Positions 8,413 to 46,260 of a DNA stretch of 64,000 nucleotides are shown here, in pieces. The notes under the pieces are model-generated. The model ran no database searches and was not told the DNA's origin. It was given only the letters and a program-made list of their open reading frames with translations. Within the stretch, counting starts at the first letter, position 1. Each line of letters opens with the position of its first letter. The DNA lies in NCBI RefSeq assembly GCF_002886045.1, contig NZ_CP025791.1, positions 1,200,001 through 1,264,000 on the forward strand, read 5' to 3'. The translations under genes were made by a program, and so were the position numbers. Source of the stretch: Flavivirga eckloniae. GTDB taxonomy: Bacteria; Bacteroidota; Bacteroidia; Flavobacteriales; Flavobacteriaceae.

Positions 8413-8441
8413 CACTTTTTTAGGGCTTAATAAGGAACAAA

Positions 8442-9449: not shown

Positions 9450-9450
9450 T

Positions 9451-9483
9451 GAGGCAGTCCCAAAAGTGTTCATTCTGAATGAC
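9451..9483 (+). repeat. Remnant of family-2 inverted-repeat element
   Basis: GAGGCAGTCCCAAAAGTG followed by TTCATTCTGAATGAC resembles one end of the element at 42926-43059 (GAGGTTGTCTGAAAAGTG, then TCATTCAGAATGA). No opposite end is seen, so this is a one-ended relic directly before the zincin-like gene. Confidence 0.45.
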
Positions 9484-9554
9484 ATATAATGCTTTGTACA
9501 ACAAGCTTTCACTACGTTCTAAATAAAACCCCGCCTTTAAATCCCCAAAAAACC

Positions 9555-10940: not shown

Positions 10941-10952
10941 TGTAAATTTTCA

Positions 10953-10983
10953 TGTAACTTTTTTACAATATCACAGTCTACAT
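10953..10983 (+). promoter_or_regulatory. Candidate ECF-sigma promoter upstream of the first ECF operon
   Basis: TGTAAC (10953-10958) followed after 18 bases by TCTACAT (10977-10983) resembles a GTAAC-type ECF -35 element with a -10 box. A TGTAAC/CTACAT pair also precedes the other ECF gene at 51108, but its spacing is 16 bases. The start codon is about 235 bases away, so either the leader is long or the match is accidental. Confidence 0.25.
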
Positions 10984-11219
10984 AATATATCTGTATCAAG
11001 GCGCTTTAACATGGTATAGAAAAGAAGAGGGAGAATATCTTTTGAAAAAATAGTGTTTACGCAAGCCTTTTTTACAATTAAAAATACATGCTATAAACTC
11101 TGAATATATAAGCATGGGCAATCTCTTCTTTACAAAAAGATGACATTTTTTTAAAATAAAATGCAATAGATTAAAAAACTGTCGTCTTTAAAACCAAAGA
11201 GCCTCTATAAACGGTTACA

Positions 11220-11759
11220 ATGAACTCGGAATCTGAAAACAGTAAAAAACTTAACGATTTTTTTGGTAGAGAATACCGGTCTCTTAAAGTTTATGTAAGC
11301 AACCGAATAAAAGACTCGGCCAGCAGAAGTGCCGAAGATATTATTCAGGATGTAGCCCTAAAACTATTCTCCGGAGCAGATAGATCTGCACCCATTAATA
11401 ATGTGGCTGGTTTTGTGTACAGGTCAATTAAAAACAGAATAATTGATATTATGCGTACATCTAAAAAAACGGAGCAAGTAGACATTGATTACGAGTACTT
11501 AAATCTGGCAGAAAAGATAAACCAGTCTACAGACGATCATATATCTGAAGACATAATTCCTGCTTTAAAAAGTAGCATAGAACAGCTTAAACCCGGTTAT
11601 AGAGATATTATTATAGCTGTAGATTTTGAAGGCTATACGTATAAAGAGATTTCCAAAGAAACTGGAATTCCAGAAGGCACACTTATGTCTCGAAGACATA
11701 GAGCCATTGGGATGTTATATAAAAAATTAGAATCAGAAATTAACAAACATAAAAATTAG
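11220..11759 (+). CDS. ECF RNA polymerase sigma factor
   Basis: 179 residues. Region 2 is at about 10-80 (FFGREYRSLKVYVSNRI ... AEDIIQDVALKLF ... VAGFVYRSIKNRIIDIMRT) and region 4 at about 120-172 (IEQLKPGYRDIIIAVDFEGYTYKEISKETGIPEGTLMSRRHRAIGML), the helix-turn-helix that reads the -35 element. It leads a tight operon with a membrane protein 6 bases downstream and a small HMA-like protein beyond, but with no recognisable anti-sigma factor. Activating signal unknown. Confidence 0.9.
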   Translation: MNSESENSKKLNDFFGREYRSLKVYVSNRIKDSASRSAEDIIQDVALKLFSGADRSAPINNVAGFVYRSIKNRIIDIMRTSKKTEQVDIDYEYLNLAEKINQSTDDHISEDIIPALKSSIEQLKPGYRDIIIAVDFEGYTYKEISKETGIPEGTLMSRRHRAIGMLYKKLESEINKHKN

Positions 11760-11765
11760 CATATC

Positions 11766-12170
11766 ATGAAAAACTTTTTCACACATAAATTCAGAAGTAA
11801 GTCTCCGATAGAGATTGCAGGCATAATCATCTTTGGAGCTATTGCTATCGCTGGATTAGCCATTTTGTTCGGCTTTGTAATCATGTGGCTATGGAATTGG
11901 CTTATGCCAGAAATTTTCGGACTAGCCACACTTACGTATTGGCAAGCTGTAGGTTTATTTATATTCTTAAAATTACTACTTGGAGGCTGCGGAGGCGGAG
12001 GAAAATCTTCTAAAAGTTCAAAACGAAAATGCGATGATGACTCAAAAACCGATTTCTCAAAATGGAAGCACTATGACGAGTTTTGGGAAGAAGAAGGCGA
12101 CGAGCTTTATAAACAATATATCTCACGCAAAACAAATCAAAATCAATCAAACGAATTAAAAGAACTCTAA
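11766..12170 (+). CDS. Small membrane protein with Gly/Cys-rich linker
   Basis: 134 residues. Two hydrophobic segments (IEIAGIIIFGAIAIAGLAILFGFVIMW; ATLTYWQAVGLFIFLKLLLGG) are followed by an unusual GCGGGGKSSKSSKRKCDDD stretch and an acidic, aromatic tail (FSKWKHYDEFWEEEGDELYKQY). Six bases after the ECF sigma stop, so surely co-transcribed. It could hold the sigma factor at the membrane, but it has no zinc-binding anti-sigma motif; that role is speculation. Confidence 0.75.
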   Translation: MKNFFTHKFRSKSPIEIAGIIIFGAIAIAGLAILFGFVIMWLWNWLMPEIFGLATLTYWQAVGLFIFLKLLLGGCGGGGKSSKSSKRKCDDDSKTDFSKWKHYDEFWEEEGDELYKQYISRKTNQNQSNELKEL

Positions 12171-12189
12171 TTCTTTAAAATCTTCTATT

Positions 12190-12408
12190 ATGCACCTGCT
12201 CATATTTAAAACAAACATTGAATCGAAGAAAAAAGTAAAATCCTTAAACCCAGTACTCAATAAACATTCTGATATTTTAGATTGGACTATCGACCTCGAA
12301 GACATCGATAATGTTCTAAGAATTGAAGCCACAAGTAACATTACAGAATCAGATATTATCGATATGGTTAGCATGCGTGGCTTTACCATAAAAACTTTAA
12401 CAGATTGA
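12190..12408 (+). CDS. Small HMA-fold-like protein without metal cysteines
   Basis: 72 residues, beginning MHLLIFKTNIESKKKVKSLN. The predicted beta-alpha-beta-beta-alpha-beta order and length (TNIESKKKVKSLNPVLNK ... WTIDLEDIDNVLRIEA ... ESDIIDMVSMRGFTIKTL) are those of heavy-metal-associated domains, yet the CxxC metal site is absent. Third gene of the ECF operon, 19 bases downstream. Probably a small cytoplasmic binding or regulatory protein; function unknown. Confidence 0.65.
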   Translation: MHLLIFKTNIESKKKVKSLNPVLNKHSDILDWTIDLEDIDNVLRIEATSNITESDIIDMVSMRGFTIKTLTD

Positions 12409-29795: not shown

Positions 29796-32309
29796 TTAAA
29801 TAAGATCCTGAAACTCGATATGATACTTCTCATCATACGCTTCAAAATACTTCTCACAAAATTTATCGTAATAATATCTAGCCCGTGTTTGGCTTTCCTT
29901 GCTTTTTAAATAGCTAACTATATACTGCAAAGCTTGTTCATTTAAATCATCAATTTTTATGACTAATGTGTAAACCTCAAAAGCTTGAGCCTGTTCTTTT
30001 AATTCATCTAATGTTAAGGCATAGTCATTAAGCGCATCAACAACATCAAAATTTATTGAAGTTTGAAATTCTTCAAGCCATTCCCAGTTTGAATTTTCCA
30101 AAAACTTACCGGACTTAACATATTGAAACAGTTCTTTATACTTTTCTGGTCTGGATTTATCCAATTGTTTAAGAATAGAAGATACCCGTAAATAATCGCA
30201 AATAAAGCTTTCATTCCAAGTTATTTTCCAGTATCCACTTTCAAAATTAATGCTAATACCTTCAATATCTGAAATGGCAGACCTAAGTTTATTAAAACTT
30301 ACACTACGATTGTTCGATGCCTTTTTTGTTGAAAAACCGTGCCAAATAATATTCGTTATTTTTTGGGATGATATCCCTCTTGTTGATTTAACAGAATAAA
30401 GCAATATGATTAAAAACAATTCTTTTATTTTCGGAGGGAATTTCAATGTTATATCTTTCCCGTGCTTATCGTACACTCTAAAACCACCAAATAATGTTAT
30501 TGTGTTAATCTTACTTCCCAGAATTTCAGAAGTTTTAAATGATTTTACTCTTGTAGTTTGAAATTTAACGCTGCGCCTTCTTCTTACTACCATTAGAATT
30601 ACCAACGCCAAAACGACAAGAGTAATGAGAGTTAAAAAAATAAAAACCAGATTGTTTTTCTTTTCAACTTTTACACCATCAGAAAAAACTGTTTTTATTT
30701 CATTATTGCTAAGTGCCCTGTTCCATATATATAAATCATCGATATACCCAGACAGATGCCCCTCTTGAATAAACCCTCTTCCTAACATCAACTCCGATTC
30801 ACCAATATACGAAGGGTGCCCAGTAGAAGAGCCATGTTGTTTTCCATTTATAAATATAGATTGCTCTTGGTTTTTTATATCGTATCTAACAACTAGATTA
30901 TACCATTTAGAGGGTTCAAGCTTTTTGTAAACAGAAACGTCTGAACCATAAAACCCAAAATAAGGAATGCCTTTTCTTATATTTACATGTAAACTCTTTC
31001 TGTATTCCTTTTCATTTGCTCCAATAAGAAAATAATCATTTTCTAAATCCAGTTCCGAAAGCTTAATATTTAAACTAATTGTAAAACTACTTTTCCTAAT
31101 GCCAAAATCATCTGGTATGCCAAAAACAGCATATGAGCTATCCTGAAACTTAAGGACTTCTCCTTTTACAATATCTTTCGCAAACTCGCACTTAAAGTTT
31201 TTAGTTGATGAAGCTGGTTTTATGAGGTTATTAATCTTACCGTTAAAGGTAAATGCACCAGTTAACTCTTCATCCAACGACAGCGGAAAGGCAGTAAAAT
31301 TAATGACGCCTTTTTTTAAATATTCTTCCGTTACCTGTATATTAGAGGGCCTAAAGGAATAGCCATGTTGATAAGGACGAAGTACCGGAGCCTCATCTTC
31401 AACAACCGGAAAACTGTAATATCCATTTGTAATAGCTTTAACTTTATTCTCCCAAAAAACTTGTTCTAGAGGTTTATTCCTATACGATACAACCCCAGAA
31501 ATAGATGGAAAGTCTCTTAACACATAATTCAAATAATATATTTTTCTTATATGCTTACCTTCAACCATAATAAAATTTGGCCGTTTACCACATAATTGCC
31601 AGCACTTTATAGCATGTAAAATACTAAAGTTATTTTCACTAAGATTCAACCAGCTTTCATCAATTTTTGACTTCTCTATATTACTCTTTTCAAAGTGTCT
31701 GAGAAGTAAAAGTTCGTTTTCAGGTTTTCCGTTGGAATAATAACCTTCAAAAATAGGACTGTCAAAATTGGTAAAAGGAAATTCAGCAATATGATCCCAG
31801 GCATAATTAATAATTTTGTCTTCATCATTGGTTTGATGAAAAGAGAAGATTATAAGCCGTTTTCCTGTATCTCTTATCTCTTCCAAATTGGGCCACTTTT
31901 CTCCTGCAGGTAGAAAAAAGCAATAATCGTCCAAATTAGCTTTATTTAATACTTGTTTAAGCCAGTTTTCCGGACCTTCATAGTTAATAAAAAGAGGAAC
32001 GACCTTAGATGGGTTTTTATCCAGATATACCTTTAAAGCCTCTACATACTGCTGAAAAGTCACATACGAATCGGAAGATTCTACGTAGAGTTCATTACTA
32101 TCGAGCGCATAATTAATATGAATACTGAAACCAATATTGTAGTCTGACTTGTCTTCTTCAAAATAATTAATGGCCTCTTTTGCATTTTCAAAATCACCTA
32201 TTAAATAACTGTTACTACTTAAATGTTGAGCATTTACAGTATTAACCAATAAAACAATAGCTGTGAAACAAATAACTAAAATACTTTTCCTTGAAAATAT
32301 TCGCAGCAT
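29796..32309 (-). CDS. Membrane-bound SARP-like regulator with periplasmic PLC-like and LamG domains
   Basis: 837 residues. Signal peptide/anchor at about 8-27. Residues 35-275 resemble the PI-PLC X domain (NPSKVVPLFINYEGPENWL, CFFLPAGEKWPNLEEIRDTG, KRLIIFSFHQTND), but the first catalytic His motif is missing, so it is probably not an enzyme. A LamG/concanavalin-like domain follows (about 395-545; SSFTISLNIKLSEL, WYNLVVRYD, GYIDDLYIWNRALSNNEI). One membrane helix at 553-575 is followed by an Arg-rich cytoplasmic stop. The cytoplasmic part (602-697) is a winged helix of OmpR/SARP type, then a bacterial transcriptional activator (BTAD)-like helical repeat region (700-830). Divergent from the GH95 operon, which it probably senses and controls. 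Confidence 0.75.
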   Translation of the reverse strand: MLRIFSRKSILVICFTAIVLLVNTVNAQHLSSNSYLIGDFENAKEAINYFEEDKSDYNIGFSIHINYALDSNELYVESSDSYVTFQQYVEALKVYLDKNPSKVVPLFINYEGPENWLKQVLNKANLDDYCFFLPAGEKWPNLEEIRDTGKRLIIFSFHQTNDEDKIINYAWDHIAEFPFTNFDSPIFEGYYSNGKPENELLLLRHFEKSNIEKSKIDESWLNLSENNFSILHAIKCWQLCGKRPNFIMVEGKHIRKIYYLNYVLRDFPSISGVVSYRNKPLEQVFWENKVKAITNGYYSFPVVEDEAPVLRPYQHGYSFRPSNIQVTEEYLKKGVINFTAFPLSLDEELTGAFTFNGKINNLIKPASSTKNFKCEFAKDIVKGEVLKFQDSSYAVFGIPDDFGIRKSSFTISLNIKLSELDLENDYFLIGANEKEYRKSLHVNIRKGIPYFGFYGSDVSVYKKLEPSKWYNLVVRYDIKNQEQSIFINGKQHGSSTGHPSYIGESELMLGRGFIQEGHLSGYIDDLYIWNRALSNNEIKTVFSDGVKVEKKNNLVFIFLTLITLVVLALVILMVVRRRRSVKFQTTRVKSFKTSEILGSKINTITLFGGFRVYDKHGKDITLKFPPKIKELFLIILLYSVKSTRGISSQKITNIIWHGFSTKKASNNRSVSFNKLRSAISDIEGISINFESGYWKITWNESFICDYLRVSSILKQLDKSRPEKYKELFQYVKSGKFLENSNWEWLEEFQTSINFDVVDALNDYALTLDELKEQAQAFEVYTLVIKIDDLNEQALQYIVSYLKSKESQTRARYYYDKFCEKYFEAYDEKYHIEFQDLI

Positions 32310-32713
32310 AAAAGATAAAATTAATAAGCGCTTTAAAAGTTTAAATTTAACATTAAAGACGTATTAATAAGCAAAAAAACAATAAATATTAAAAAAAATG
32401 TTAAACACCTAAAAACATGACACTTACAAAGGCTATTAATAGGTTAATTAATACCTTAATTAAGACTACAGGTATTTGTTTGATAATTTTCTGTTAACCA
32501 GAGTTAATTATGTTTGGCTTGAATGATTTTGATTTATTAATGAAGAGACACTATTTTACATCAATAACATTCATAAAAACCATATAGGGGTTAAAAAACT
32601 TTATAAGATATAAATACCTAAAGGAAACCCTTAGAAAAAGGCTAACTTTTAGCATACCTATATAAAAAATAAGACATTAACTATAATTACGTAACTATAA
32701 ATCAACATTTAAT
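32310..32713. promoter_or_regulatory. Divergent control region of the carbohydrate locus
   Basis: 404 AT-rich bases between the regulator and GH95 start codons. No TTTG/TANNTTTG pair is visible. Candidate sites are the direct repeat AACTATAA (32679-32686 and 32693-32700, 14 bases apart) just before the GH95 start, and a patch with GGTTAATTAATACC followed by TTAATTAAG near 32450. SARP-type regulators bind direct repeats, so the first is the better candidate; both are unproven. Confidence 0.35.
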
Positions 32714-35185
32714 ATGCAATACATGTATAGAAAAATTTATTTTTTACTCTTTACACTTTTTACCGGAAGCATTTTCTACTCTTTTGGTCAAGAAGTAAAG
32801 AAGATAGAAACAAACTCAATTGTAATAAATAACTCAACACCTACAGAAGACTGGGAAGAATCTCTAGTTAGTGGAAATGGTGCCCAAGGTGTTATGGTAT
32901 ATGGACACCCTTTACGTGAATCTATCGTATTAAACCATGAAAAACTTTGGATTCCTGGTCAGTCAGTATATCCAGACGTGCCAAATATAGTTCCAGGATT
33001 AAATAAGGCTCGAGAACTAGCCAAACAATCTAAGTGGAAAGAAGCAAACAGAATGCTATGGAGAAGTTTTTGCAAAGGAAATGTCGACATGTTTTCTACA
33101 GAAGATTTGTCAAGACCAGGACCTCGTTTAAATTATAATTCGGTACACCCCGGACACAAACTAAACATTAGAATAGATGAACTTGGTAGTATTGTAAACT
33201 ATAATCGTTCTTTAGAATTAAACAGTGGTGAGATTACTACGAGCTGGGAAGATTTCCGCGGTAAATTTGAAAAATCTGTTTTTGTATCCAGACCAGACAA
33301 TGTTATAGTTACTCGAGTAAAGTGCGATGGTTTAAGTTTTGGTGCCAGTATAAACATCAAGGATATTGATGGTTGGAAACCCGAAGATATTAGAAAACCA
33401 TTGATAGAACACGGAGAACAAGAACTATATTATAAAACATCTTACGTACGTTTACACGGACTTCCTGAACCTGATGGATATCATTCTCTTTCTAGAGTCA
33501 TTACAAAAGGAGGAAACATTCAAGTAAAGAGTGACCGACTTATAGTAAGCGATGTAAACGAAATAATTGTAATTACACGCTTAGATTATCTTCCTGTGGC
33601 ATCTAAACCTGAAAGACAAGCGCTTTCAATCAGCTTATCGGACTTGCCAGCTTCTTATGAAGCATTATATAATCGTCACACCGTAATACAGGCTGAAATG
33701 ATGAACCGTTGTTCCTTAAATTTAGGCGGAAACAATGGTGCAGGAAAAACAACTGACGAAATATTATTTGATGCAAAATCAAACGGACCTTCTCCAGAAT
33801 TTCTGGAACTTCTTTTTGCCGTAGGTAGATATGCTTTTATTGCCAGTAGTGGAGATCTTCCTCCTGCATTAATGGGCATCTGGGGTAATACCTGGACACC
33901 AAATTGGTGGGGACATTATACAAACGATTCAAACCTCAACTTGGCAGTAGCTTCTGGAAGTGTTACAAATCTTCCTGAAATGATGGAAAGCTATTTTTCA
34001 TGGATTGAAAGCTTATATCCAGACTGGAAAAGGAATGCAGCCCAGCTATATGGTGCCGATGGATATATGGCTGCTATAGCTCATGGATGGAGACACGGTA
34101 TCGCTTTAGGTGGCTGGAATGAGTGGATTGGTGGTGCTGGATGGCTTGGAAGCTATTTTTACGAGCACTATCAATTTACAGACGATAAAGAATTCCTAAA
34201 AAAACGAGTTATTCCTTTATTTGAAAACATTGTATCCTTTTATGAAGGCGCCATGAAAGATATGGAAATGCCAGATGGCAAATTTCTTGTATGGCCAGGT
34301 TGCTCAGTAGAAAATGCACCTGCTGATATTCGCAGGTACGGTGAGCAAGGCGCACCAAATGCGACTCATGAATTGGCAGTAATGAAATACTCATTTAATG
34401 TTTTAATTGATGGGTATCGTACCCTTGGAATAAATGAGGAAAGAATTCCTGAGCTTGAAGCATTTATTAGCAAAATTCCCGAGTACATGATAAACGACGT
34501 AGGGGCACTTGCCGAATGGAGCCATCCTGATATGAATGAGCAATACAACAACAATCACAACTCACACCTATGGCCTTTATATCCTGGTACAGAAATCACT
34601 CCATGGAAATCTTCTCCCAAACTCATTAAGGCTTGTAAAATAGCCATTAGAGAGCGTAATAGGGTTATTGTTGATACGAACAGATGCGGACACGGTATTA
34701 TGCACCTCGGTTATATGGGAGCGCGTCTTAACGATCCTAAAATGGCATGGAGAACCTTAGATGTTATTGCTCGTAACGACTTAATTTACAATAGCTTTGT
34801 TTCATCTCACAACTCACTCCATCATACTTTTAACCTTGATGCCTCGCTTTCTCTTCCAGGTTTAATGGCCGAAATGTGCGTTACCTCTGCACCGGGAAGA
34901 CTTGCTCTTTTATCCGGTTTGCCTCTGGAAAAATTACCACACGGTGAAATCAAGGGCATTTTAGCCAGAAAAGGTATCAAAATAAACAAAATGGTCTGGG
35001 ATAGAAAAACAGGAACTATTAACATGAATCTTACCAGCGTCAATAATCAGGAGGTTATTATTTGTAGTCGCCTTGAGTTAACAGATCTAAAAGCAAATAC
35101 AAAAGCGAGAAAGGAAAATGATGAATGGTTGGTGCGTCTGCCTAAAAATAAAAACGTTCGATTAACCATAAAATTTAAAGAATAA
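32714..35185 (+). CDS. Glycoside hydrolase, GH95-like (alpha-L-fucosidase/galactosidase type)
   Basis: 823 residues; start at 32714 or the ATG at 32723, both leading to a signal peptide (KIYFLLFTLFTGSIFYSFGQ). The N-terminal beta-sandwich (about 35-300; SLVSGNGAQGVMVYGHPLRESIVLNHEKLW) precedes an (alpha/alpha)6 barrel with GDLPPALMGIWGNTWTPNWW, TNDSNLNLAVASG, WNEWIGGAGWLGSYFYEHY and NNHNSHLWPLYPG. Order and length fit GH95, which removes alpha-linked L-fucose or L-galactose. Probably periplasmic. First gene of a five-gene operon. The exact sugar specificity cannot be told. Confidence 0.82.
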   Translation: MQYMYRKIYFLLFTLFTGSIFYSFGQEVKKIETNSIVINNSTPTEDWEESLVSGNGAQGVMVYGHPLRESIVLNHEKLWIPGQSVYPDVPNIVPGLNKARELAKQSKWKEANRMLWRSFCKGNVDMFSTEDLSRPGPRLNYNSVHPGHKLNIRIDELGSIVNYNRSLELNSGEITTSWEDFRGKFEKSVFVSRPDNVIVTRVKCDGLSFGASINIKDIDGWKPEDIRKPLIEHGEQELYYKTSYVRLHGLPEPDGYHSLSRVITKGGNIQVKSDRLIVSDVNEIIVITRLDYLPVASKPERQALSISLSDLPASYEALYNRHTVIQAEMMNRCSLNLGGNNGAGKTTDEILFDAKSNGPSPEFLELLFAVGRYAFIASSGDLPPALMGIWGNTWTPNWWGHYTNDSNLNLAVASGSVTNLPEMMESYFSWIESLYPDWKRNAAQLYGADGYMAAIAHGWRHGIALGGWNEWIGGAGWLGSYFYEHYQFTDDKEFLKKRVIPLFENIVSFYEGAMKDMEMPDGKFLVWPGCSVENAPADIRRYGEQGAPNATHELAVMKYSFNVLIDGYRTLGINEERIPELEAFISKIPEYMINDVGALAEWSHPDMNEQYNNNHNSHLWPLYPGTEITPWKSSPKLIKACKIAIRERNRVIVDTNRCGHGIMHLGYMGARLNDPKMAWRTLDVIARNDLIYNSFVSSHNSLHHTFNLDASLSLPGLMAEMCVTSAPGRLALLSGLPLEKLPHGEIKGILARKGIKINKMVWDRKTGTINMNLTSVNNQEVIICSRLELTDLKANTKARKENDEWLVRLPKNKNVRLTIKFKE

Positions 35186-35251: not shown

Positions 35252-37519
35252 ATGAAAAGAACCAATTACCAACTATTTGATTTTATGGACCTCTCCCCTT
35301 CTTTAGATGAAGAAGAGTGCCTTTGGATCGCAGGTCAATATAAAAACATACAAGAAGACCAGGGAGATATCCTTATAGATATTCCTTTTATCAAACAGAA
35401 TAACTCTAACGATATTCAACCTGATTTAGAAGCCGCCCCATTAATGCGTCGTTTAAGAATAAGGGCATACGGAAGTCGTATATTGAGAGTCGCTTTTGAT
35501 GAGGGAGAAGCCAAAATGACGGATTCTCTTATGCTCGATTGGCATAGTGACCTTGCAGCAACTCCACTTAAAATTAAATCTTCTGATGATTGCATAAAAA
35601 TTATAGATGAGCTTAAAGATGTAAGGGCTGAGTTAAACCTGGCAAGTGCCGAGATTGACTATTGGAGTGACTTACTACCCCCAGCTCCTGAAACAATTAA
35701 CATAACACTTTACCCAGAAAAAGGTAAAGCTGTAAAGATTAATGGTCAGGATCAATTTTTTCCAAGAAGAAGAGACGGGTTACCAATTGCCTTTGTAGAA
35801 AAGGATGCATGCACAGACAGAAGTGCTTTTTCTTTAGCATGCGACCCAAACGAACAGTTTTGTGGCACAGGCGAACGGTTCAGCAAAATGGATCTTAGCG
35901 GAAAAACAATTCAACTAGAAAATCAGGATGCTCAGGGCGTAAATAATAATCGGGCTTATAAGAATATCCCGTTCTTTATTTCCAGCCGTATGTATGGTTT
36001 TTTCCTCCATACCACAGCCTTTTCTAAAATTTCATTTGCAGATCATTCCACACGTTCCGTACAGGTATTATCAGAGTATAATCAGATGGATTTCTTCTTA
36101 TTTGGAGGTTCCAGCATCGAAGAAATCCTATACAGTTATAAACAAGTAACAGGCTTTCCAACACTTCTTCCTAAATGGAGTTTTGGAACATGGATGAGTC
36201 GAATGACATATTTTTCAGCCGATGAAGTAAATAATATTTGTGATCGGCTTCGAAAAGAGGATTACCCTTGCGATGTTATTCATTTAGATACCGGATGGTT
36301 TAAAACAGATTGGCTCTGTGAGTGGACCTTTAACTCTGAACGCTTTCCCGATCCCAAAGGATTCATCTCAAAACTTAGAGATAATGGATACAAGGTAAGC
36401 TTGTGGCAACTGCCCTATATTGCTGCAGATGCAAAACAGCATGATGAAGCAAAAGAAAACAAATACTTTGCCCCTTTAAAAGAAATAAAAGAACAGGGCG
36501 GTTCAAACTTCTCAGCTTTGGATTATGCAGGTACTATAGATTTTACTAACCCGAAAGCTGTAAAGTGGTACAAAGAACTACTCAAGAATCTTTTAGATAT
36601 GGGAGTGGTTTGTATAAAAACCGATTTTGGAGAAGAAATTCATCTTGAAGCAGACTATCATGGAATGGATGCCCGATTGCTACAGAACTTATATCCGCTT
36701 TTATACCAGAAAGCAGCATATGAAGTTACCAAGGAAGTTACAGGCGATGGTATCGTTTGGGCTCGTGCCGCCTGGGCTGGTTGCCAACGATTTCCACTTC
36801 ACTGGGGTGGCGATGCAGCTTGTACATGGGACGGCATGGCTGGCTCTTTAAAAGGAGGGCTACATCTAGGGTTATCTGGCTTCGGATATTGGAGTCATGA
36901 TGTACCCGGATTTCATGGTATTCCAAATTTTATGAATACCGTAATTCCCGACGATCTATATATAAGATGGACCCAGTTTGGAGTTTTCACATCACATCTT
37001 CGTTACCACGGAACATCTAAAAGAGAACCTTACGAATATCCATTAGCTGCTTCAATTGTAAAAAAATGGTGGAAGCTTAGATATGCGCTTCTACCCTACA
37101 TATGGCAACAAAGCGAACGTGTTACTAACTCTGGCTTCACTTTTTTACGGGCGCTTATATTCCATCACCCTAACGATAAAGTTTGCTGGAATATCCACGA
37201 TCAATACTTCTTTGGTGACGATTTTTTAGTTGCTCCTGTTATGAATTCAGAAAACAAAAGAGATATCTACTTACCAGAAGGAACATGGATAAACTTCTTT
37301 AATGGTGAAAAAGTAAATGGCCCCATTTGGTTATACAACCAAAACATCCCACTTGAAGAAATGCCAGTTTGGGTACGATTCGATGCATCTGTGGCTTTTT
37401 ATCCTGAACCAGTAAATTCAACAGATGATGTTGAAGAGGGTAAAGAAACCACAATAGTTTTTAATGACTCATACAAAGGTATTGCTCATACAGTAATTGG
37501 TGATTTAGTAGGGTTTTAA
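35252..37519 (+). CDS. Glycoside hydrolase family 31, alpha-xylosidase-like
   Basis: 755 residues, without a signal peptide, so probably cytoplasmic. The GH31 nucleophile is Asp458 in VCIKTDFGEEI and the acid/base is Asp521 in HWGGDAACTWDG; WSFGTWMSRMTYFSADEV, VIHLDTGWF and LHLGLSGFGYWSHDVPGF complete the family pattern. The KTDFGE form is like that of YicI-type alpha-xylosidases rather than alpha-glucosidases (WxDMNE). It would act on alpha-xylosyl ends of imported oligosaccharides. Second gene of the operon, 66 bases after the GH95 gene. Confidence 0.9.
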   Translation: MKRTNYQLFDFMDLSPSLDEEECLWIAGQYKNIQEDQGDILIDIPFIKQNNSNDIQPDLEAAPLMRRLRIRAYGSRILRVAFDEGEAKMTDSLMLDWHSDLAATPLKIKSSDDCIKIIDELKDVRAELNLASAEIDYWSDLLPPAPETINITLYPEKGKAVKINGQDQFFPRRRDGLPIAFVEKDACTDRSAFSLACDPNEQFCGTGERFSKMDLSGKTIQLENQDAQGVNNNRAYKNIPFFISSRMYGFFLHTTAFSKISFADHSTRSVQVLSEYNQMDFFLFGGSSIEEILYSYKQVTGFPTLLPKWSFGTWMSRMTYFSADEVNNICDRLRKEDYPCDVIHLDTGWFKTDWLCEWTFNSERFPDPKGFISKLRDNGYKVSLWQLPYIAADAKQHDEAKENKYFAPLKEIKEQGGSNFSALDYAGTIDFTNPKAVKWYKELLKNLLDMGVVCIKTDFGEEIHLEADYHGMDARLLQNLYPLLYQKAAYEVTKEVTGDGIVWARAAWAGCQRFPLHWGGDAACTWDGMAGSLKGGLHLGLSGFGYWSHDVPGFHGIPNFMNTVIPDDLYIRWTQFGVFTSHLRYHGTSKREPYEYPLAASIVKKWWKLRYALLPYIWQQSERVTNSGFTFLRALIFHHPNDKVCWNIHDQYFFGDDFLVAPVMNSENKRDIYLPEGTWINFFNGEKVNGPIWLYNQNIPLEEMPVWVRFDASVAFYPEPVNSTDDVEEGKETTIVFNDSYKGIAHTVIGDLVGF

Positions 37520-37593: not shown

Positions 37594-38649
37594 ATGTTAA
37601 AATTAGGAATATTAGGCCTAGGAGAAGGAAGAAGTGCCATTTCAGCAGCACTGAATAGTTCTGCCATTGAATTGGTAACCGTATGCGATTTAAATGAAGA
37701 CTTGTGCAAAAAACGTACTGCCGAATTTGGATTAAGCAATTACACCACCAATTATTCTGACATGCTGAATAATCCGGACATTGACATTATAGCCATATAT
37801 ACTCCGGATAAACTTCATGCCCAACACATAAAAATGGCGCTACAGCATAATAAACATGTTGTATGCACCAAACCATTAATAGATAATTTGGAAGATGGTC
37901 AGGAATTGATCGATCTGGTTAATAAAACCGGAAAAAAGGTATTTGTCGGGCAAAGCTCCAGGTTTTTTGAACCCATGATTAAACAACGTAAAGATTACTT
38001 AAATGGTGAAATTGGAGACATTATAACAGTTGAGGCGCACTATAATGCAGACCATCGATGGTTTTTGGAAAAACCTTGGGCTCTGGAAAAAGCATTCAAA
38101 TGGTTATACGGCGGATTAAGTCATCCTATAGATTTTTTGAGATGGTATATGCCAGATCTCTCAGAAGTTATGGGCTATGGTATGATTAGCCAGAATGGCA
38201 TTAAAGCCGGGCTTAAAAACGAAGATACCATGCACTTTATTTTTAAAACACACAGTGGTAAAGTAGCCCGTCTTAGCGGATGTTATACAGGACCTGTACA
38301 GCCTCAAACGCGAGAAAGTGAAATGAGCTGTATTATTCGAGGCACAGAAGGCTGTAGCCATGCCGATTACATGGATTTACGCTATGCCATTACAAATAAA
38401 GACGGTGAAGAAAAAATCTACACCTTCGATTATAAAAACAAACATTATTTCAGGTTTGAGGGGAAAAGCCATCATGCAGGAGAATACCAGAATTATCTTG
38501 AATATTTTGCGAATTGTATTAAACACAATGAAACGCCTTATCCAGATATTATTGAAGGCATTGGAACAGTTTCGGTCCTACAAGCCATGGAGCAAACTAT
38601 GGCTACAGGTTTACCTGTTAAGATTCCAAATTTATTACCCAAAAACTAA
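37594..38649 (+). CDS. Gfo/Idh/MocA-family oxidoreductase
   Basis: 351 residues: N-terminal Rossmann domain (LKLGILGLGEGRSAISAAL) and the typical VVCTKPLIDNLEDGQEL in place of EKP, followed by the C-terminal alpha/beta domain (FFEPMIKQRKDYLNGEIGDI, LYGGLSHPIDFLRWYMPDL with the catalytic His). Such NAD(P)-dependent enzymes oxidise sugars or cyclitols, or act as glycosidases. No export signal. In this operon it probably processes a released sugar. Confidence 0.9.
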   Translation: MLKLGILGLGEGRSAISAALNSSAIELVTVCDLNEDLCKKRTAEFGLSNYTTNYSDMLNNPDIDIIAIYTPDKLHAQHIKMALQHNKHVVCTKPLIDNLEDGQELIDLVNKTGKKVFVGQSSRFFEPMIKQRKDYLNGEIGDIITVEAHYNADHRWFLEKPWALEKAFKWLYGGLSHPIDFLRWYMPDLSEVMGYGMISQNGIKAGLKNEDTMHFIFKTHSGKVARLSGCYTGPVQPQTRESEMSCIIRGTEGCSHADYMDLRYAITNKDGEEKIYTFDYKNKHYFRFEGKSHHAGEYQNYLEYFANCIKHNETPYPDIIEGIGTVSVLQAMEQTMATGLPVKIPNLLPKN

Positions 38650-38672: not shown

Positions 38673-40250
38673 ATGGAAAATATTCACAACTTTTTACATA
38701 CTATTGATTTTGTCGTAGTACTTGCCTATTTAGTAATACTAATAGGAATAGGCTATTGGGTTAGTTTTGTTAAAAAGAGTAAAAAAGATGAAAACTTATT
38801 TTTGGCCGGACATTCACTTGGCTGGGGCAGCATAGGATTTACCATGTGGGGAACCAACGTAGGTCCTTCTATGCTTATAGCCTCTGCAAGTATTGGTTAT
38901 ACAACTGGTATTGTTGCCGGTAATTTTAGTTGGCTGGCTTTTATCTTCATTTTCCTATTAGCTACTGTTTTTGCCCCAAGATACCTGAATGCAAAAGTAC
39001 AAACGCTTCCAGAATTTATGGGAAGACGATTCGGGGAATCCACTAGAAAAATTCTAGCATGGTATTCACTAGTTACGATACTTATTTCGTGGTTGGCACT
39101 TACACTTTTTGCAGGTGGCATACTTGTGGGACAAATTCTAGACCTACCGCTCTGGGGCTCGGTCATTATTCTTGTAATAATTGCGGCCTTTTTTACTATT
39201 GCCGGAGGATTGAAAGCCATTGCCATTACCAATATTTTCCAAATGCTCTTGCTAATAATTGTGTCGTTAATTTTAACTGTAGTAGGCGTATATAAAGCAG
39301 GTGGTTTAGTTACCATTTACGAATCGACACCTACAGAGTTTTGGAACCTGTTTTTACCGGTTGATGATCCTAATTACCCGTGGATAGCTCTGGTTCTGGG
39401 GTATCCTGTTATGGGAGTTTGGTTTTGGTGTACAGATCAATCTATGGTGCAATCTGTTTTAGGTGCAAAAAGCCTTAAACAAGGCCAAATGGGTACTAAT
39501 TTTACTGGATGGCTTAAAATTTTAGATGTTGCGCTTTTTATTATTCCTGGAATAACTTGTCTGGTTCTTTTTCCAAATCTAACCAATCCGGATGAAGCTT
39601 ATATGACCATGGTAACAAGACTACTCCCAGCTGGCATGGTAGGTTTGGTAATGGCCGTTCTTATTGCAGCATTAGTAAGTACAATAGATTCCGCTTTAAA
39701 CTCTTTAAGCACCGTTTTTACAATGGATATCTATCTAAAAAAATACAACCCCAATGCTTCACAGAAAGAGATCGTAAAAATTGGTCGAATCGTTACAGTA
39801 GTTGGAGCTGTTGCAGCCATATTTCTTACTTTGGCTATAGACAGCATAAAAGGGCTTAAGCTTTTTGATGTTTTTCAGGCCGTTCTAGGTTTTATTGCTC
39901 CCCCAATGTCTGTGATATTTCTTTTTGGAGTACTATGGAAAAAAAGCACCACTCTGGCAGCCAATTTCGTCTTATCTGGCGGTACGATTATCAGTTTGGG
40001 TATTGGTATCGTTTATTTCATTACAAAGGAGCAGGTTGACTGGCCTCATTTCCTTTTGCTTTCCTTTTACATTTTCGTATTCCTTTCCTTTTGCATGTGG
40101 GCGATTAGCTTTTTCGGTAGAAAGAAGGCTACAGACAACAACCAACTTTTAGACAATATACCATCTAAAACAAGCAAAAGTGTTTGGATTAGTTGGATTC
40201 TCTTAATTATAGTGATGATTGGGTTATACATCTTTTTCAACAATAATTAA
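38673..40250 (+). CDS. Sodium:solute symporter (SSS family)
   Basis: 525 residues with about 13-14 membrane helices and SSS motifs: LFLAGHSLGWGSIGFTMWGTN, FAPRYLNAKVQTLPEFMGRRFG, GGLKAIAITNIFQMLL and LIAALVSTIDSALNSLSTVFTMDIY, the sodium-site region. SGLT-like members take up sugars. Gap of 23 bases after the oxidoreductase gene. In the absence of SusC/SusD this would be the operon's inner membrane importer. Confidence 0.93.
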   Translation: MENIHNFLHTIDFVVVLAYLVILIGIGYWVSFVKKSKKDENLFLAGHSLGWGSIGFTMWGTNVGPSMLIASASIGYTTGIVAGNFSWLAFIFIFLLATVFAPRYLNAKVQTLPEFMGRRFGESTRKILAWYSLVTILISWLALTLFAGGILVGQILDLPLWGSVIILVIIAAFFTIAGGLKAIAITNIFQMLLLIIVSLILTVVGVYKAGGLVTIYESTPTEFWNLFLPVDDPNYPWIALVLGYPVMGVWFWCTDQSMVQSVLGAKSLKQGQMGTNFTGWLKILDVALFIIPGITCLVLFPNLTNPDEAYMTMVTRLLPAGMVGLVMAVLIAALVSTIDSALNSLSTVFTMDIYLKKYNPNASQKEIVKIGRIVTVVGAVAAIFLTLAIDSIKGLKLFDVFQAVLGFIAPPMSVIFLFGVLWKKSTTLAANFVLSGGTIISLGIGIVYFITKEQVDWPHFLLLSFYIFVFLSFCMWAISFFGRKKATDNNQLLDNIPSKTSKSVWISWILLIIVMIGLYIFFNNN

Positions 40251-40298: not shown

Positions 40299-42908
40299 AT
40301 GAACAAAACAAGAATAACTAATTTACTGATACTAACAATATTTCTTATAGGAATTCCTTTTAGAAGTATAGCTCAATATCAACATAAATTTATGGATCCA
40401 AACCTTGATATCGAAAAAAGGTTAGATGATCTTCTTGAAACGCTTACTCTGGATGAAAAAATAACCATGTTATCTGAAACTGCTCCTGCTGTTGAACGGC
40501 TGGGCATAGATGCTTACAATCATGGTAATGAGGCTTTACACGGTATTATGCGCCCTGGAAAATTTACAGTTTTTCCACGCCCAATGGGTTTAGCTGCAAC
40601 TTTTAATCCTGATGCCATACAGCTTATGGCAGATTATATAAGTGATGAAGCTCGCGGAAGGTATAATGAGCTGGGAAGAAAATGTGTTGGCGGACGATTT
40701 AATGGACACTTTAATGGACTGCTTACTTTTTGGTCTCCAAATGTAAACATGGCAAGAGATCCTCGTTGGGGACGTACCGGTGAAACATATGGAGAAGACC
40801 CATTGTTAACTTCAAGAATGGGAGCTTCCTTTACACGAGGCTTGCAAGGCGACGGCAAATATTTAAAAGCAATAGCTACACCAAAGCATTATGCAGCGAA
40901 TAACGAAGAGCATAATCGTTTCTCATGCAATGCTGAGATACCAGAACGTTCATTACGCGAATACTACCTCAAAGGATTTGAAGGCTGTATTGTTGATGGC
41001 AAAGCATTTTCAATCATGGCTGCCTATAATTCAATTAACGGTGTACCCTGCTCCGTAAACCCGTATTTATTAAATGATATTCTACGTGACGAATGGGGTT
41101 TTAAAGGCTATGTTGTTGGTGATTTAAATTCCCCTCATTATGTTTATACGCGCCATAAATACACAAAATCTCAAGCAGAAACTGCTGCATTGTGTATTAA
41201 AAGTGGTCTTGAGCTCGACAGTGGATTTAAACCATTCAAACACCTAAAAAAAGCCATTAAGAAAGGGTTATGTACAGAAGAAGAAGTAACCGAGGCTGCA
41301 AGAAGAGTTCTTAGAGGGCGTTTTAAATTAGGTATGTTCGACCCGATCGACATGGTACCTTACAACAGTATAAAACCAGATATAGTAGGCTCTGAGAAAC
41401 ATCAGAAACTTGCTCTTGAATTGGCACAACAATCCATGGTGTTACTCAAAAATGACAACTTTTTACCATTAAAGGATGATATAAAGAAAATAGCTGTGCT
41501 AGGACCGTGTATTAATATGTACAAGCACCCCCATTATAGTGCCTATGAAGGTTCTGCAAACCCTCCGGTGACTCCTATCGATGGTATCAAAAGTATTTGT
41601 AACGAAAAGGGTATAGAGCTTGTAGAAATCCCATGGGAATTACTCTCTGGTAGTAGCCAGTTAGTAAAAGTTGAATCATCATTTCTGAAACCAGAAATAG
41701 AAATCGGAAATAAATCGGTTGGTCTTACTGGCTATTACTATGATAATAAAAATCTTGAAGGTAAACCTCTAGGCAAAAGAGTGGATGGTGATATAGATTT
41801 TGACCGTGTAAAAAAAGCACCTGATAGTTACTTTATTAATGAACCTTTAAGTGTACGATGGACTGGTAAACTTATGCCTCCCGTTAGCGGAAATTATAAA
41901 TTATCATTTACTTACGACGATGGTGCAAAAGTATGGCTAAATGGCAAAGAAGTATTAAATGATTGGGTTGTTGGAGCATCAAGAACCAAAGCATTTGATT
42001 TCAAGATGGTTAAAGACACCCCTGTGGATATTCGCATTGAGTACTTTGATACTGGTGGAGGTGCTGTTGCGCAGCTTAAGTGGTTAATTCCAGAATCGAC
42101 AGACAAGAACCTACACCTAAACGCCATAGCGGATTGTGATGCGGTTATAATGGTCATGGGACTCGACGATAACCATACAGGAGAAGGCTTTGATAAGACC
42201 TACCTTGATTTACCAGCAGACCAAGATGAAATGATTCGTAAAGTACATGCTTTGAATAAAGAAATAGCCTTAGTGTTAATGAATAGTACTGCACTTACAA
42301 TAAACTGGGAGAACAAGAATATACCAGCTATTTTGGAGGCTTGGTATCCTGGTGAAAAAACAGGAACTGCTCTTGCTGATATACTTTGGGGTAAAATAAG
42401 CCCTAGCGGTAAACTACCAATGACTTTTTGCAACAGTGTTGATGATTTGCCTCCATTCGACGATTATGATGTTACCAACGGTCGCACATACATGTATGCC
42501 AAAGCAGAACCTTTGTTTGAATTTGGTTATGGTCTTAGCTACACGACCTTTGCTTATTCGAACCTAAAATTGAATAAGAAGTCGTATGCAAAGAACAAAA
42601 CCATCAAGCTTAGTTTTGATGTTAAGAATACTGGCGACTTTAATGCCGATGAAATTGCCCAGGTTTACATAAAACCGGTAAATGTTAAACCAAGTATTAA
42701 GTTACCAATTAAACAACTTAAAGGTTTTAAACGGACTTCCATTACATCTGGGGCATCAAAAACGATAGTTATTGAAATACCTGTTAATGACATAAACTAT
42801 TACAATGAAAAAGAAAAGAAATTCGATATCATTAAAGGTGAGTTTGAAATACAAGTGGGTGCTTCTTCAAAAGACATTAGATTGAAAGAAAAACTTGTAA
42901 TTAAGTAA
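40299..42908 (+). CDS. Glycoside hydrolase family 3 with PA14 insert
   Basis: 869 residues with a signal peptide (ITNLLILTIFLIGIPFRSIAQ). GH3 N-terminal domain (about 45-340) has NVNMARDPRWGRTGETYGEDP, IATPKHYAANNEEHNR and the nucleophile Asp275 in FKGYVVGDLNSP. The C-terminal GH3 domain is split by a PA14 domain at about 477-617 (LTGYYYDNKNL ... RWTGKLMPPVSGNYKLSFTYDD), and a fibronectin III-like tail closes the protein. Expected to be a periplasmic or surface beta-glucosidase or beta-xylosidase. The PA14 insert often narrows specificity to short substrates. Last gene of the operon. Confidence 0.92.
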   Translation: MNKTRITNLLILTIFLIGIPFRSIAQYQHKFMDPNLDIEKRLDDLLETLTLDEKITMLSETAPAVERLGIDAYNHGNEALHGIMRPGKFTVFPRPMGLAATFNPDAIQLMADYISDEARGRYNELGRKCVGGRFNGHFNGLLTFWSPNVNMARDPRWGRTGETYGEDPLLTSRMGASFTRGLQGDGKYLKAIATPKHYAANNEEHNRFSCNAEIPERSLREYYLKGFEGCIVDGKAFSIMAAYNSINGVPCSVNPYLLNDILRDEWGFKGYVVGDLNSPHYVYTRHKYTKSQAETAALCIKSGLELDSGFKPFKHLKKAIKKGLCTEEEVTEAARRVLRGRFKLGMFDPIDMVPYNSIKPDIVGSEKHQKLALELAQQSMVLLKNDNFLPLKDDIKKIAVLGPCINMYKHPHYSAYEGSANPPVTPIDGIKSICNEKGIELVEIPWELLSGSSQLVKVESSFLKPEIEIGNKSVGLTGYYYDNKNLEGKPLGKRVDGDIDFDRVKKAPDSYFINEPLSVRWTGKLMPPVSGNYKLSFTYDDGAKVWLNGKEVLNDWVVGASRTKAFDFKMVKDTPVDIRIEYFDTGGGAVAQLKWLIPESTDKNLHLNAIADCDAVIMVMGLDDNHTGEGFDKTYLDLPADQDEMIRKVHALNKEIALVLMNSTALTINWENKNIPAILEAWYPGEKTGTALADILWGKISPSGKLPMTFCNSVDDLPPFDDYDVTNGRTYMYAKAEPLFEFGYGLSYTTFAYSNLKLNKKSYAKNKTIKLSFDVKNTGDFNADEIAQVYIKPVNVKPSIKLPIKQLKGFKRTSITSGASKTIVIEIPVNDINYYNEKEKKFDIIKGEFEIQVGASSKDIRLKEKLVIK

Positions 42909-43974: not shown

Positions 43975-46260
43975 TTAATAAGTTACTGCCCCCATAATGG
44001 TTATATCTTTCAACCTTTCCTTTGGAGTAACTTTTAGTTTTTCAATTTTTCCATCCTTCAAAACGGCTTCTATTGTTGTGTTTAAAGGTGCATGAAGTTT
44101 AAAATCTACATCCCATTCTTTGGGCCACGCTGGGAAAAGAAGAATTTTATCACCAACAGGCTGCAATAACATGGCATGTAAAGTTTGTTGAGCTACTCCT
44201 CCATTATCATGGTCTGGCACCCAGTCGCCATGTATATAAAATGCCGGAAATCTGTATGCTCCCGAGTAAACAAATCTATTGCCAAGATGTATTCGCGCTT
44301 CATCAGTCAATCCCAAATAAGCTGCATAAACAGGATCATTATGCCAACATCTGTAAACACCTTTAAAATCTTTTTTATGAAAAGAGTTTTGTATCATTTC
44401 CAGATCATCAAACCCTAATCCATATTGGCGATAAGGAAACACTGAATAAAGTGCAACATTCTCAACATTATTGCTTTTTGAAAAGTTTTCCCAGGCGGGA
44501 GCCATATATCTTACTCCATTTTCATCAAGTTTTATTGGATAATCAGGAATCAGTTCTGCTATTCTTGCCCATTCATTTCGCTGTTCTTCTGTGGTGTTTT
44601 TTGTTAACGTCATTAATTCCTGCAATACTTTTTTCATACCTGCAATTTCTGGAAGTGGGTTTTTCACATTCCAATAAGTTTCCAGGGCTTGTGCCGGATA
44701 CATTTCTATTTTACCTTCTTTACCCAAGGGCCAATGATTAGCAAAAAACGTAACTACTTCTTTAATTATAGGTAAAGCTGTGTCTTCAAGAAAAGCTGTA
44801 TCTTGAGTATATTTAAAGTATTCCAACATCATTACACTAAGTTCCAGACCTCCTTGCCAATAACGCTTTACATAACCACTGCGTACCAACCCTAATGGTT
44901 TGTTATTTCTGTCGTAACCATAATCGCTATTTGCGTAAGTTCCCCAAAAAAGCATAGTTTCCGGGAAAAAAGCGCCTTTATGATCATAATAAAGTTCAGT
45001 ACGTTTTTTTGCCAAAGGAAGTGCATCACGATACATCTTAAAGAATGGTTTCATCAACTCAAAATCACCCGTTGCAATCATCGGCCAATACACCTGACGT
45101 TGATTTTGAAACCAAAAGGGTTCACCCCAATTCCTATAGTCTGCATCCCAATTCTTTTTTGGATCTACATGCCCGGTTTTGGTTCCGGGATGCGCATCAA
45201 CTGTAAATAGTGAGCCATTATACTTAATAGGGTATTTACCTCTACCAGCACACCCCATCAAGTAGCGATGAGCATACCAACCTCTAGAAATATCGTTTGT
45301 CTCTTTTGTATTCTTTCCAGATACTTTTACCCAACTTGTGTTCCAGAAGTCATTCCACCAGTCAAGATGCTTATTTTTTGCCAATGCTACATCAAGAGCC
45401 TCCATTTTAGTAGCATTGTCCTTTATTTTATCTTTCCACTCCTCAATTGTAGCTTTCTCCATTGTTAAAACATGAACGGACAGATTTAAATGCTTAGTTT
45501 TCTTTTTAGAAATTAGAGATGTAGACGATTCTTTAGTTAAACCTTCAGCTCTTATTAGCCCTCCAAAAGTTCGGTGAAGTAACGGATCTTCTCCAATTAT
45601 CGATTCTAAACCCTGTAATTCCATGGATGCTCTGTAAACCGAACGTTTGTTGTGATGCAACCACATGAGTTCATCCTTTCCTGATTCCACAATTGAATCT
45701 GGTTCTACGTATATAGGTTCTCCTGATTCTCGACTATGGAAAAAAGAAAACTTTTCATATTCTTCTATTTGGCGTCTTTCTGTACGCCATGGTTCTATCG
45801 AAACTTTTGCTTTAAACTTTTTGCCTCCTTCAACATCAACATGTATAACTGGGTTGTTCGCATCAACCCACATAACAATGGTACGCTTATTTTCACCTTC
45901 ATCCATTTTCACAACCCATTGTCCCTGCTTAAACTGCAGTTCTTGAAAATAAGGCGTTTTAGGAGTTACCAGGTTGGGAGAAAACGACACTCTAACCTTA
46001 CCTAGTTTTACAAGACGTGCATTATCGCTCCAGGCATCCGTTTTTGAGATATAAAAAATCAAATCCCCACTCTCCTCTACCCAGGCATTAACACCAATAT
46101 CGCCGTTACCTAAAGGCATTGATCCAAGCGAGTTCTTACATGGCGCATTCCAAATGGGGTTGTAATCGGAAATATTTTGTGCCTGAACTTCACTCTTGTT
46201 TGTTATTGTAAATACTAAAGTAATAAGTAAATAAGCTAATGCATTGAAATAGTTGTTCAT
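43975..46260 (-). CDS. DUF5703-like secreted glycoside hydrolase (GH95-related fold)
   Basis: 761 residues with a signal peptide (NALAYLLITLVFTITNKSEVQAQ). N-terminal beta-sandwich (about 32-290; DYNPIWNAPCKNSLGSMPLGNGDIGVNAWVEESGDL) matches the DUF5703 domain, followed by an (alpha/alpha)6-barrel-like half with GWYAHRYLMGCAGRGKYP, NWGEPFWFQNQRQVYWPM and HGDWVPDHDNGGVAQQTLHAML, and a short beta C-terminus. It probably acts on a polysaccharide side chain and belongs with the facing operon, but it is transcribed convergently. Substrate unknown. Confidence 0.75.
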   Translation of the reverse strand: MNNYFNALAYLLITLVFTITNKSEVQAQNISDYNPIWNAPCKNSLGSMPLGNGDIGVNAWVEESGDLIFYISKTDAWSDNARLVKLGKVRVSFSPNLVTPKTPYFQELQFKQGQWVVKMDEGENKRTIVMWVDANNPVIHVDVEGGKKFKAKVSIEPWRTERRQIEEYEKFSFFHSRESGEPIYVEPDSIVESGKDELMWLHHNKRSVYRASMELQGLESIIGEDPLLHRTFGGLIRAEGLTKESSTSLISKKKTKHLNLSVHVLTMEKATIEEWKDKIKDNATKMEALDVALAKNKHLDWWNDFWNTSWVKVSGKNTKETNDISRGWYAHRYLMGCAGRGKYPIKYNGSLFTVDAHPGTKTGHVDPKKNWDADYRNWGEPFWFQNQRQVYWPMIATGDFELMKPFFKMYRDALPLAKKRTELYYDHKGAFFPETMLFWGTYANSDYGYDRNNKPLGLVRSGYVKRYWQGGLELSVMMLEYFKYTQDTAFLEDTALPIIKEVVTFFANHWPLGKEGKIEMYPAQALETYWNVKNPLPEIAGMKKVLQELMTLTKNTTEEQRNEWARIAELIPDYPIKLDENGVRYMAPAWENFSKSNNVENVALYSVFPYRQYGLGFDDLEMIQNSFHKKDFKGVYRCWHNDPVYAAYLGLTDEARIHLGNRFVYSGAYRFPAFYIHGDWVPDHDNGGVAQQTLHAMLLQPVGDKILLFPAWPKEWDVDFKLHAPLNTTIEAVLKDGKIEKLKVTPKERLKDITIMGAVTY

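Follow-up and report, generated by a model that had tools for sequence, protein, structure and literature searches.

Within the window, by which we mean the whole stretch of 64,000 nucleotides analysed, a predicted membrane-anchored regulator is encoded on the minus strand, and 404 bp separate its gene from the start (32714) of a divergent operon with three glycoside hydrolase genes (Table 1). A preliminary description, made from the sequence alone, had put an open reading frame at 29796-32309 on the minus strand, divergent from a glycoside hydrolase operon, and both statements hold exactly: the frame begins with ATG, and the GH95 gene runs in the opposite direction. Apart from this operon, the window contains a DUF5703/GH95-like gene at 43975-46260 (-).

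Table 1. Features of the regulator locus, with positions in the window and residue numbers of the regulator
Feature	Position	Strand	Basis or remark
Regulator gene	29796..32309	(-)	Open reading frame, 837 aa, ATG start
Signal peptide, residues 1-28	32226..32309	(-)	Hydrophobic helix 7-24 in model; cleavage inferred from sequence
PI-PLC-X-like region, residues ~30-265, catalytic residues missing	31515..32222	(-)	Matches to PI-PLC-X proteins and alignment; model weak at 158-226
Small beta domain, residues ~268-350, unclassified	31260..31508	(-)	Strands in model; P-x-K-x-GY-x-F-x-P block conserved in alignment A2
LamG/concanavalin-like domain, residues ~373-545	30675..31193	(-)	Pfam E 2.2e-16; 22/22 members of alignment A2; fold matches
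Single membrane helix, residues 553-575	30585..30653	(-)	Full-length model; basic residues after helix
OmpR-type winged helix, residues 602-699	30213..30506	(-)	Models, Foldseek; conserved NNR-x-x-x-x-x-x-LR motif
Recognition helix, residues 661-679	30273-30329	(-)	Within OmpR-type winged helix
BTAD-like helical domain, residues 705-837	29799..30197	(-)	C-terminal model and PDB fold matches
Candidate operator, 11-bp period (AAAGGCTATTA ATAGGTTAATT ...)	32428..32460	(+)	Shared with the paralogue's divergent gap; weak
Candidate -7 element TTTGTTTG	32475..32482	(+)	Sequence; 47 nt from start of candidate operator
GH95 gene, first of divergent operon	32714..35185	(+)	Pfam 9e-71; GH95 alpha-L-fucosidase structures matched
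GH31 gene	35252..37519	(+)	Pfam 8.8e-87; 5f7c, 1058 bits
Gfo/Idh/MocA oxidoreductase gene	37594..38649	(+)	Pfam 1.4e-22
Sodium:solute symporter gene	38673..40250	(+)	Pfam 1.3e-51
GH3 gene with PA14	40299..42908	(+)	Pfam 1.5e-49

Predicted exported part and topology of the regulator

The full-length model (mean pLDDT 74.6, pTM 0.45, poor at residues 158-226) arranges the protein in the order signal-peptide helix, PLC-like region, small beta domain, LamG domain, membrane helix and C-terminal domains. Its helices at residues 7-24 and 553-575 agree with the signal/anchor and the one membrane helix proposed earlier, and it adds the small beta domain at about residues 268-350, which was absent from the earlier list of domains. 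In 36 of 37 family members, Lys and Arg are together more frequent after the most hydrophobic stretch than before it, so that the C-terminus should, by this rule of sequence, be cytoplasmic. The sole exception (L077) has no clear membrane helix. In this locus (7834-12253), the regulator is truncated next to transposase genes and a nearby sulfatase gene is in pieces; the regulator was left out of the tree.

The LamG domain is certain (Pfam Laminin_G_3, E 2.2e-16, residues 399-539), as the preliminary description had it, and represents the only confident Pfam match in the window protein. It occurs in all full-length members of alignment A2 (22/22), and Kelch-like propellers take the place of the sensor in four other members scanned. 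For the PLC-like part, Pfam gives no PI-PLC-X match in the window protein itself. However, residues 85-250 match a locus in genome G024 (E 1.5e-14) and residues 82-254 one in G151 (E 1.0e-13), and because both matched proteins are PI-PLC-X by Pfam, the homologous window region can be called PLC-X-like. In the alignment with these two proteins, the window protein has no counterpart of their TTHN motif, their later VYHN motif and the intervening Arg, which we take to be the catalytic residues. The earlier description of a PI-PLC X-like region without its first catalytic His motif is thus confirmed, and the loss goes beyond it, as the second motif and the Arg are gone too. Since these residues are missing, an enzymatic role of the PLC-like part was rejected, and judging from the alignment this part is a sensor or a relic. 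An intact PI-PLC-X gene, which keeps the His motifs and carries a secretion tail, adjoins a Kelch-type regulator of the family in genome G024 (L075, 12027-13598, minus strand); this neighbourhood hints at a possible origin of the dead PLC-like sensor from an enzyme of this kind.

In a structure search with the full-length model, the best 50 of 435 matches at E<=0.001 are lectin-like jelly rolls, namely sialidase lectin domains, clostridial neurotoxin binding domains, CBM40, a GH43-attached domain and pentraxins. Because of this resemblance to carbohydrate-binding folds, sugar binding by the exported part is plausible as far as the model can tell, and not shown. The search of viral structures yielded no match at E<=0.001. 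Elsewhere in the same genome, at 1.098-1.124 Mb, a cluster of four long reading frames of 1637-1755 aa shows LamG-like matches.

The predicted cytoplasmic module and its relatives

For the C-terminal part, a model of 300 residues was built from 27 relatives. With a mean pLDDT of 89.9 it consists of strands, three helices and a beta hairpin followed by an all-helical domain, which is the order expected from the cytoplasmic winged helix with BTAD-like tail that had been suggested; the DNA-recognition helix, whose absence would have refuted that suggestion, is present in the model. Only six PDB chains were matched by Foldseek at E<=0.001, all of them AfsR or EmbR, and the next match lies at 0.02. 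These SARPs (AfsR, 8hvr and 8k60; EmbR, 2fez and 2ff4) share with the regulator the order of a winged helix and an all-helical BTA domain, with TM-scores of 0.50-0.52 over the query and an rmsd of 5.5-6.0 Å, but differ from it by a very low sequence identity of 11-15%.

By sequence, this kinship appears nearly invisible. Neither BTAD nor Trans_reg_C is matched by Pfam in the window protein, and among the 27 relatives each is found only weakly in three (best E 3.7e-4 and 5.6e-3, respectively). Single-sequence searches against Pfam, NCBIfam and PDB sequences did not identify the C-terminal domain, and a profile search of PDB sequences found no SARP. Among the features by which we judged SARP membership, the winged helix followed by a BTA/BTAD helical domain is therefore met by fold and not by sequence, the Pfam BTAD/Trans_reg_C match is not met in the window protein, and an actinobacterial host is not met either, the genome and the relatives being Bacteroidota.

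Of 299 sampled Flavobacteriaceae genomes, 25 contain relatives at E<=1e-10, although in G151 and G275 only a sensor domain is matched; within the genus, 2 of 12 genomes have a match, the own genome included. A profile of the C-terminal part (E<=1e-8) found matches in 6 of 395 genomes of the class and 17 of 296 of the phylum, several of the latter being weak and of other architecture. A second, full-length copy of the regulator lies at 4.65 Mb in the same genome; it is 34% identical to the window copy and its sister in the tree (support 100/98). Three partial matches were dropped before the neighbourhoods were counted (L031, PLC part only; L032, LamG only; L064, a 52-aa fragment at a contig end).

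Sugar genes and direct repeats beside the regulators

To describe the neighbourhood, we used 36 loci, i.e. 35 relatives outside the window with these three fragment matches excluded and the paralogue among the 36, and dropped neighbouring open frames under 120 aa before counting. In 21 of them, the next gene on the same strand codes for a Gfo/Idh/MocA oxidoreductase; all 21 enzymes are mutual BLAST matches (E<=1e-5) and start with a twin-arginine RR-x-F/L motif. Ten loci (type A) encode a 422-aa oxidoreductase, mostly followed by a protein of 1082 to 1136 aa with HEAT repeats and a 3-keto-disaccharide hydrolase domain, and some of them add a GMC oxidoreductase and gluconate 2-dehydrogenase subunit 3. 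Seven (type B) have an oxidoreductase of 464 to 466 aa alone, and four (type C) one of 448 to 452 aa followed by two 3-keto-disaccharide hydrolase-like proteins. Of the 69 proteins encoded by the two genes downstream of each regulator, Pfam assigns 21 to Gfo/Idh/MocA and 14 to 3-keto-disaccharide hydrolase (two of the 69 are regulators counted by mistake), compared with Gfo/Idh/MocA in 2 of 51 for the two upstream genes and with at most one of each among 120 control genes elsewhere in the same genomes. The expectation that relatives of the same architecture would adjoin carbohydrate genes was thereby fulfilled. These counts are not independent, as the loci are related and the oxidoreductases are 73-91% identical to the query of their type. 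In 14 of the 15 other loci, a gene for a sulfatase, SusD, a glycoside hydrolase, a DUF5703 protein or a 3-keto hydrolase lies at a distance of at most about six genes; this count covers genes within the fetched stretch, with 53 of the scanned proteins picked by hand. The remaining locus (L070) has no carbohydrate gene in its fetched stretch.

All 21 gaps between regulator and oxidoreductase contain a direct repeat with a period of 12 bp, which reads TTACCCC-N5-TTACCCC in types A and C and is of a TTCACC type in type B. When a gap is shuffled 200 times with its dinucleotides kept, only 0-5 of the shuffles reach its period-12 pair. Averaged across gaps, period 12 scores 10.8 versus 6.3 after shuffling; a slight rise is seen at periods 11 and 13 (7.3 and 7.7), and the others between 8 and 19 stay at background level. 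The same repeat precedes a 3-keto hydrolase gene in L040, where a spurious open frame had hidden it, and a sulfatase gene in the distant L073. In 22 of 22 cases (the 21 gaps and L040), a T[A/T]nnTT[T/A] box starts 39-40 nt downstream, counted from where the first repeat begins, and for T[A/T]nnTTT none of the remaining distances between 25 and 60 nt has more than three occurrences. The box resembles the Bacteroidota -7 element TAnnTTTG.

Of the 14 sampled genomes with an A- or C-type regulator, 10 contain exact TTACCCC-N5-TTACCCC, compared with 8 of the 285 others (p 3e-11, without correction for kinship); of the 11 exact matches in those 10 genomes, 10 fall in the regulator-oxidoreductase gap. 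For the TTCACC type, 17 chosen genomes gave seven exact matches, five of them within the gap. The backward control of the TTACCCC pattern has matches in many genomes (untallied) and is, in the 17 chosen genomes, as common as the one-mismatch pattern. Because of this, the evidence lies in the place of the sites, not in their number. Such repeats at a promoter-like position in the regulator-oxidoreductase gap are a new finding beyond what the preliminary description had proposed. In the own genome, seven copies of GTTCACCTGTTCGATCACC occur on the minus strand at 4253299-4256341, mostly in 378-bp steps, probably inside a repetitive gene.

SARP operators consist, according to a 2024 review, of heptameric repeats with spacers of 4-15 nt that overlap the -35 region (PMC10972967), and the direct repeats of the relatives (7 + 5 nt) fall within this range. 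The relatives therefore fulfil the criterion of heptameric direct repeats near -35, with a box spacing unlike AfsR: about 20 nt separate the end of the repeat from the -7 box, about 12 bp more than the 8 bp reported for SARPs (PMC10936776). In the AfsR complex described in that study, two protomers lie side by side on two 11-bp repeats and contact both sigma region 4 and the beta flap. With no binding data at hand, we read the repeats and the -7-like box as SARP-operator anatomy outside actinobacteria, and their position is compatible with an inferred activation through RNA polymerase. Since the repeats are tandem, an AfsR-like side-by-side arrangement of protomers is suggested for the family.

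In addition, one position of the recognition helix seems to vary with the repeat type. Types A and C as well as L052 and L073 have Thr together with CCCC-type repeats, and Gly goes with CACC repeats in all type B regulators but one (six of seven); L052 belongs to the B clade by tree, yet combines Thr with CCCCC repeats. The window regulator, its paralogue and most Kelch-type regulators carry Val. In the 12 Val-type loci (13.8 kb), WWAGG-N6-WWAGG occurs six times in four loci, compared with once in 22 A/B/C loci (24.7 kb) and not at all in three further loci. None of six strong held-out relatives showed any of the three motifs at a promoter-like place, which leaves the helix-to-repeat rule unconfirmed, and such a code of residue and repeat is therefore only a putative lead. 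Three of the held-out loci (L170, L172, L173) have other heptamer repeats with a period of 11 or 12 downstream.

The absence of the three known motifs from these held-out relatives could also mean that another factor binds the repeats and that the membrane protein works otherwise, e.g. as a surface-facing scaffold with an inert SARP-like domain. The lack of binding data and the eight of 285 genomes that have exact TTACCCC repeats without an A/C-type regulator leave room for this explanation. Nevertheless, we consider it very improbable, as the repeats immediately follow the regulator gene in each of the 21 gaps, vary with the regulator clade and have the anatomy of SARP operators. A separate observation concerns type A oxidoreductases of about 86% identity (L053, L079 and L081 versus L038), which stand behind regulators of two separate clades and the same TTACCCC repeats; from these sequences, it looks as if the regulator had been exchanged and the operator retained.

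Proposed mechanism, target of the window copy and known systems

Based on these data, we favour, with a probability of about 75%, a membrane-anchored one-component activator of SARP type, in which an exported glycan or sugar sensor governs a repeat-binding cytoplasmic module that switches on the adjacent sugar operon. The exported part, made of the dead PLC-like module, the beta domain and LamG, would sense a glycan or sugar in the periplasm, and the single membrane helix would relay its state inward. The winged helix and BTAD-like domain would then bind the tandem repeats head to tail just upstream of the -7 box, and the bound module may recruit RNA polymerase and thereby turn on the neighbouring operon for sugar processing. 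At the level of the family, the fold rests on prediction and the repeats and gene linkage on comparison, and binding, activation and sensing are inferred.

The sensor could also govern cleavage instead of conformation, so that proteolysis in or near the membrane releases the C-terminal module as a soluble SARP. Between the membrane helix and the winged helix, the model has a linker of about 26 residues with low confidence (below 50 at 578-598), and protomers bound side by side to tandem repeats, as described for AfsR (PMC10936776), need no dimer in the membrane. We regard release by cleavage as improbable.

For the window copy, the target is less clear. The gap at 32310-32713 contains no GC-rich heptamer repeat, and a repeat search of 32300-32720 gave one 10-nt direct repeat at a spacing of 43. 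The best periodic motif common to both divergent gaps, with a period of 11, is AAAGGCTATTA-ATAGGTT (32428) in the window and TAAGGCTTTTG-TAAGGTT at the paralogue, a score that 14 of 1000 shuffled pairs also reach. The pattern common to the two sites occurs just at these two places in 5.67 Mb, but was derived from them. A looser pattern based on the paralogue has two matches in the window, one of them the 32428 site, versus 3.35 expected, and TAAGG-N6-TAAGG alone is not specific (seven matches in the own genome versus 11 for the backward control). Both candidate sites point away from the regulator, and the -7-like box of the paralogue (TACATTTAG) lies 47 nt from its first repeat, the distance seen in the window as well. 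From sequence comparison and without binding data, 32428-32460 is a weak operator candidate with about even odds.

This weakness, the distance of about 230 nt from the site to the GH95 start, and the divergent layout, unlike the co-directional one of the 21 loci, would suit a true family member whose target lies elsewhere. Against this stands the sister paralogue, which has a triple TAAGG repeat with an 11-bp period before its own divergent operon of ApbE, YceI-like, FGE-like and Gfo/Idh/MocA genes. We hold a target elsewhere to be unlikely, and infer that the divergent operon of GH95, GH31, Gfo/Idh/MocA, symporter and GH3 genes is most likely the target of the window copy, via the weak site near 32428-32460. 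No 3-keto hydrolase was found by Pfam among the scanned genes of this operon.

Transcription of glycan loci in Bacteroidota is normally controlled by hybrid two-component systems, SusR proteins or ECF/anti-sigma pairs. The window regulator has in common with these the linkage to polysaccharide genes and the path from a signal outside or in the periplasm to transcription, but differs in that no histidine kinase or receiver (Pfam, E<=1), no AraC domain and no sigma factor was matched in it. ToxR/CadC-type regulators also combine a sensor in the periplasm with a single membrane helix and a winged helix of OmpR type in one protein. However, their order, with the winged helix N-terminal in the cytoplasm and the periplasmic domain C-terminal, is reversed in the model of the window regulator, where the sensor comes first, after a signal peptide, and the DNA-binding part last, extended by a BTAD-like domain.

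In comparison with the SARPs, the regulator is membrane-anchored, carries an exported sensor and resides in Bacteroidota, and its family stands beside sugar genes rather than antibiotic clusters, with a period of 12 bp in most relatives. SARPs are exclusive to actinobacteria according to the 2024 review (PMC10972967). A BTAD domain outside actinobacteria is not new in itself, because such domains are on record at contractile-injection loci in 4 to 10 phyla (PMC8213781). A limited literature search, at the level of titles, found nothing on membrane-bound or Bacteroidota SARPs. In sum, the window regulator has a SARP fold, and its relatives SARP-like operators, while it fails the sequence-family and taxonomic criteria, and we file the family as one that works like a SARP, with binding and activation inferred.

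If true, this would be a SARP-type activator outside actinobacteria with a membrane sensor, in which one protein does the job of the hybrid two-component systems or sigma/anti-sigma pairs of other glycan loci, and which looks like a little-known direct link from outside sugars to gene switching. Operons of Gfo/Idh/MocA oxidoreductases and 3-keto-disaccharide hydrolases would, in addition, gain a regulator and an operator. With their 3-keto-disaccharide hydrolase, GMC oxidoreductase and gluconate 2-dehydrogenase subunit 3, type A operons resemble the periplasmic 3-keto-glycoside pathway (LacABC/DUF1080; PMC9007349). We take this to be the likely target pathway of the relatives and not a counterpart of the regulator itself. 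A wider proposal, to which we give slightly less than an even chance, is that transmembrane SARPs form a class spread across the phylum, in which the exported sensor can be exchanged (dead PLC together with LamG, or Kelch-like propellers). This class would provide a separate route from extracytoplasmic glycan to promoter, control the degradation of 3-keto-glycosides and sulfated glycans, and have the letters of its repeats set by one recognition-helix residue (Thr, CCCC; Gly, CACC; Val, AAGG-like). For such a helix-to-operator code, the family provides a ready test case. Near the paralogous regulator at 4.65 Mb, a gene (806 aa, L037 5181-7601) has the DUF5703 domain seen in the window gene at 43975-46260, with an IS110-type transposase gene in between it and the regulator.
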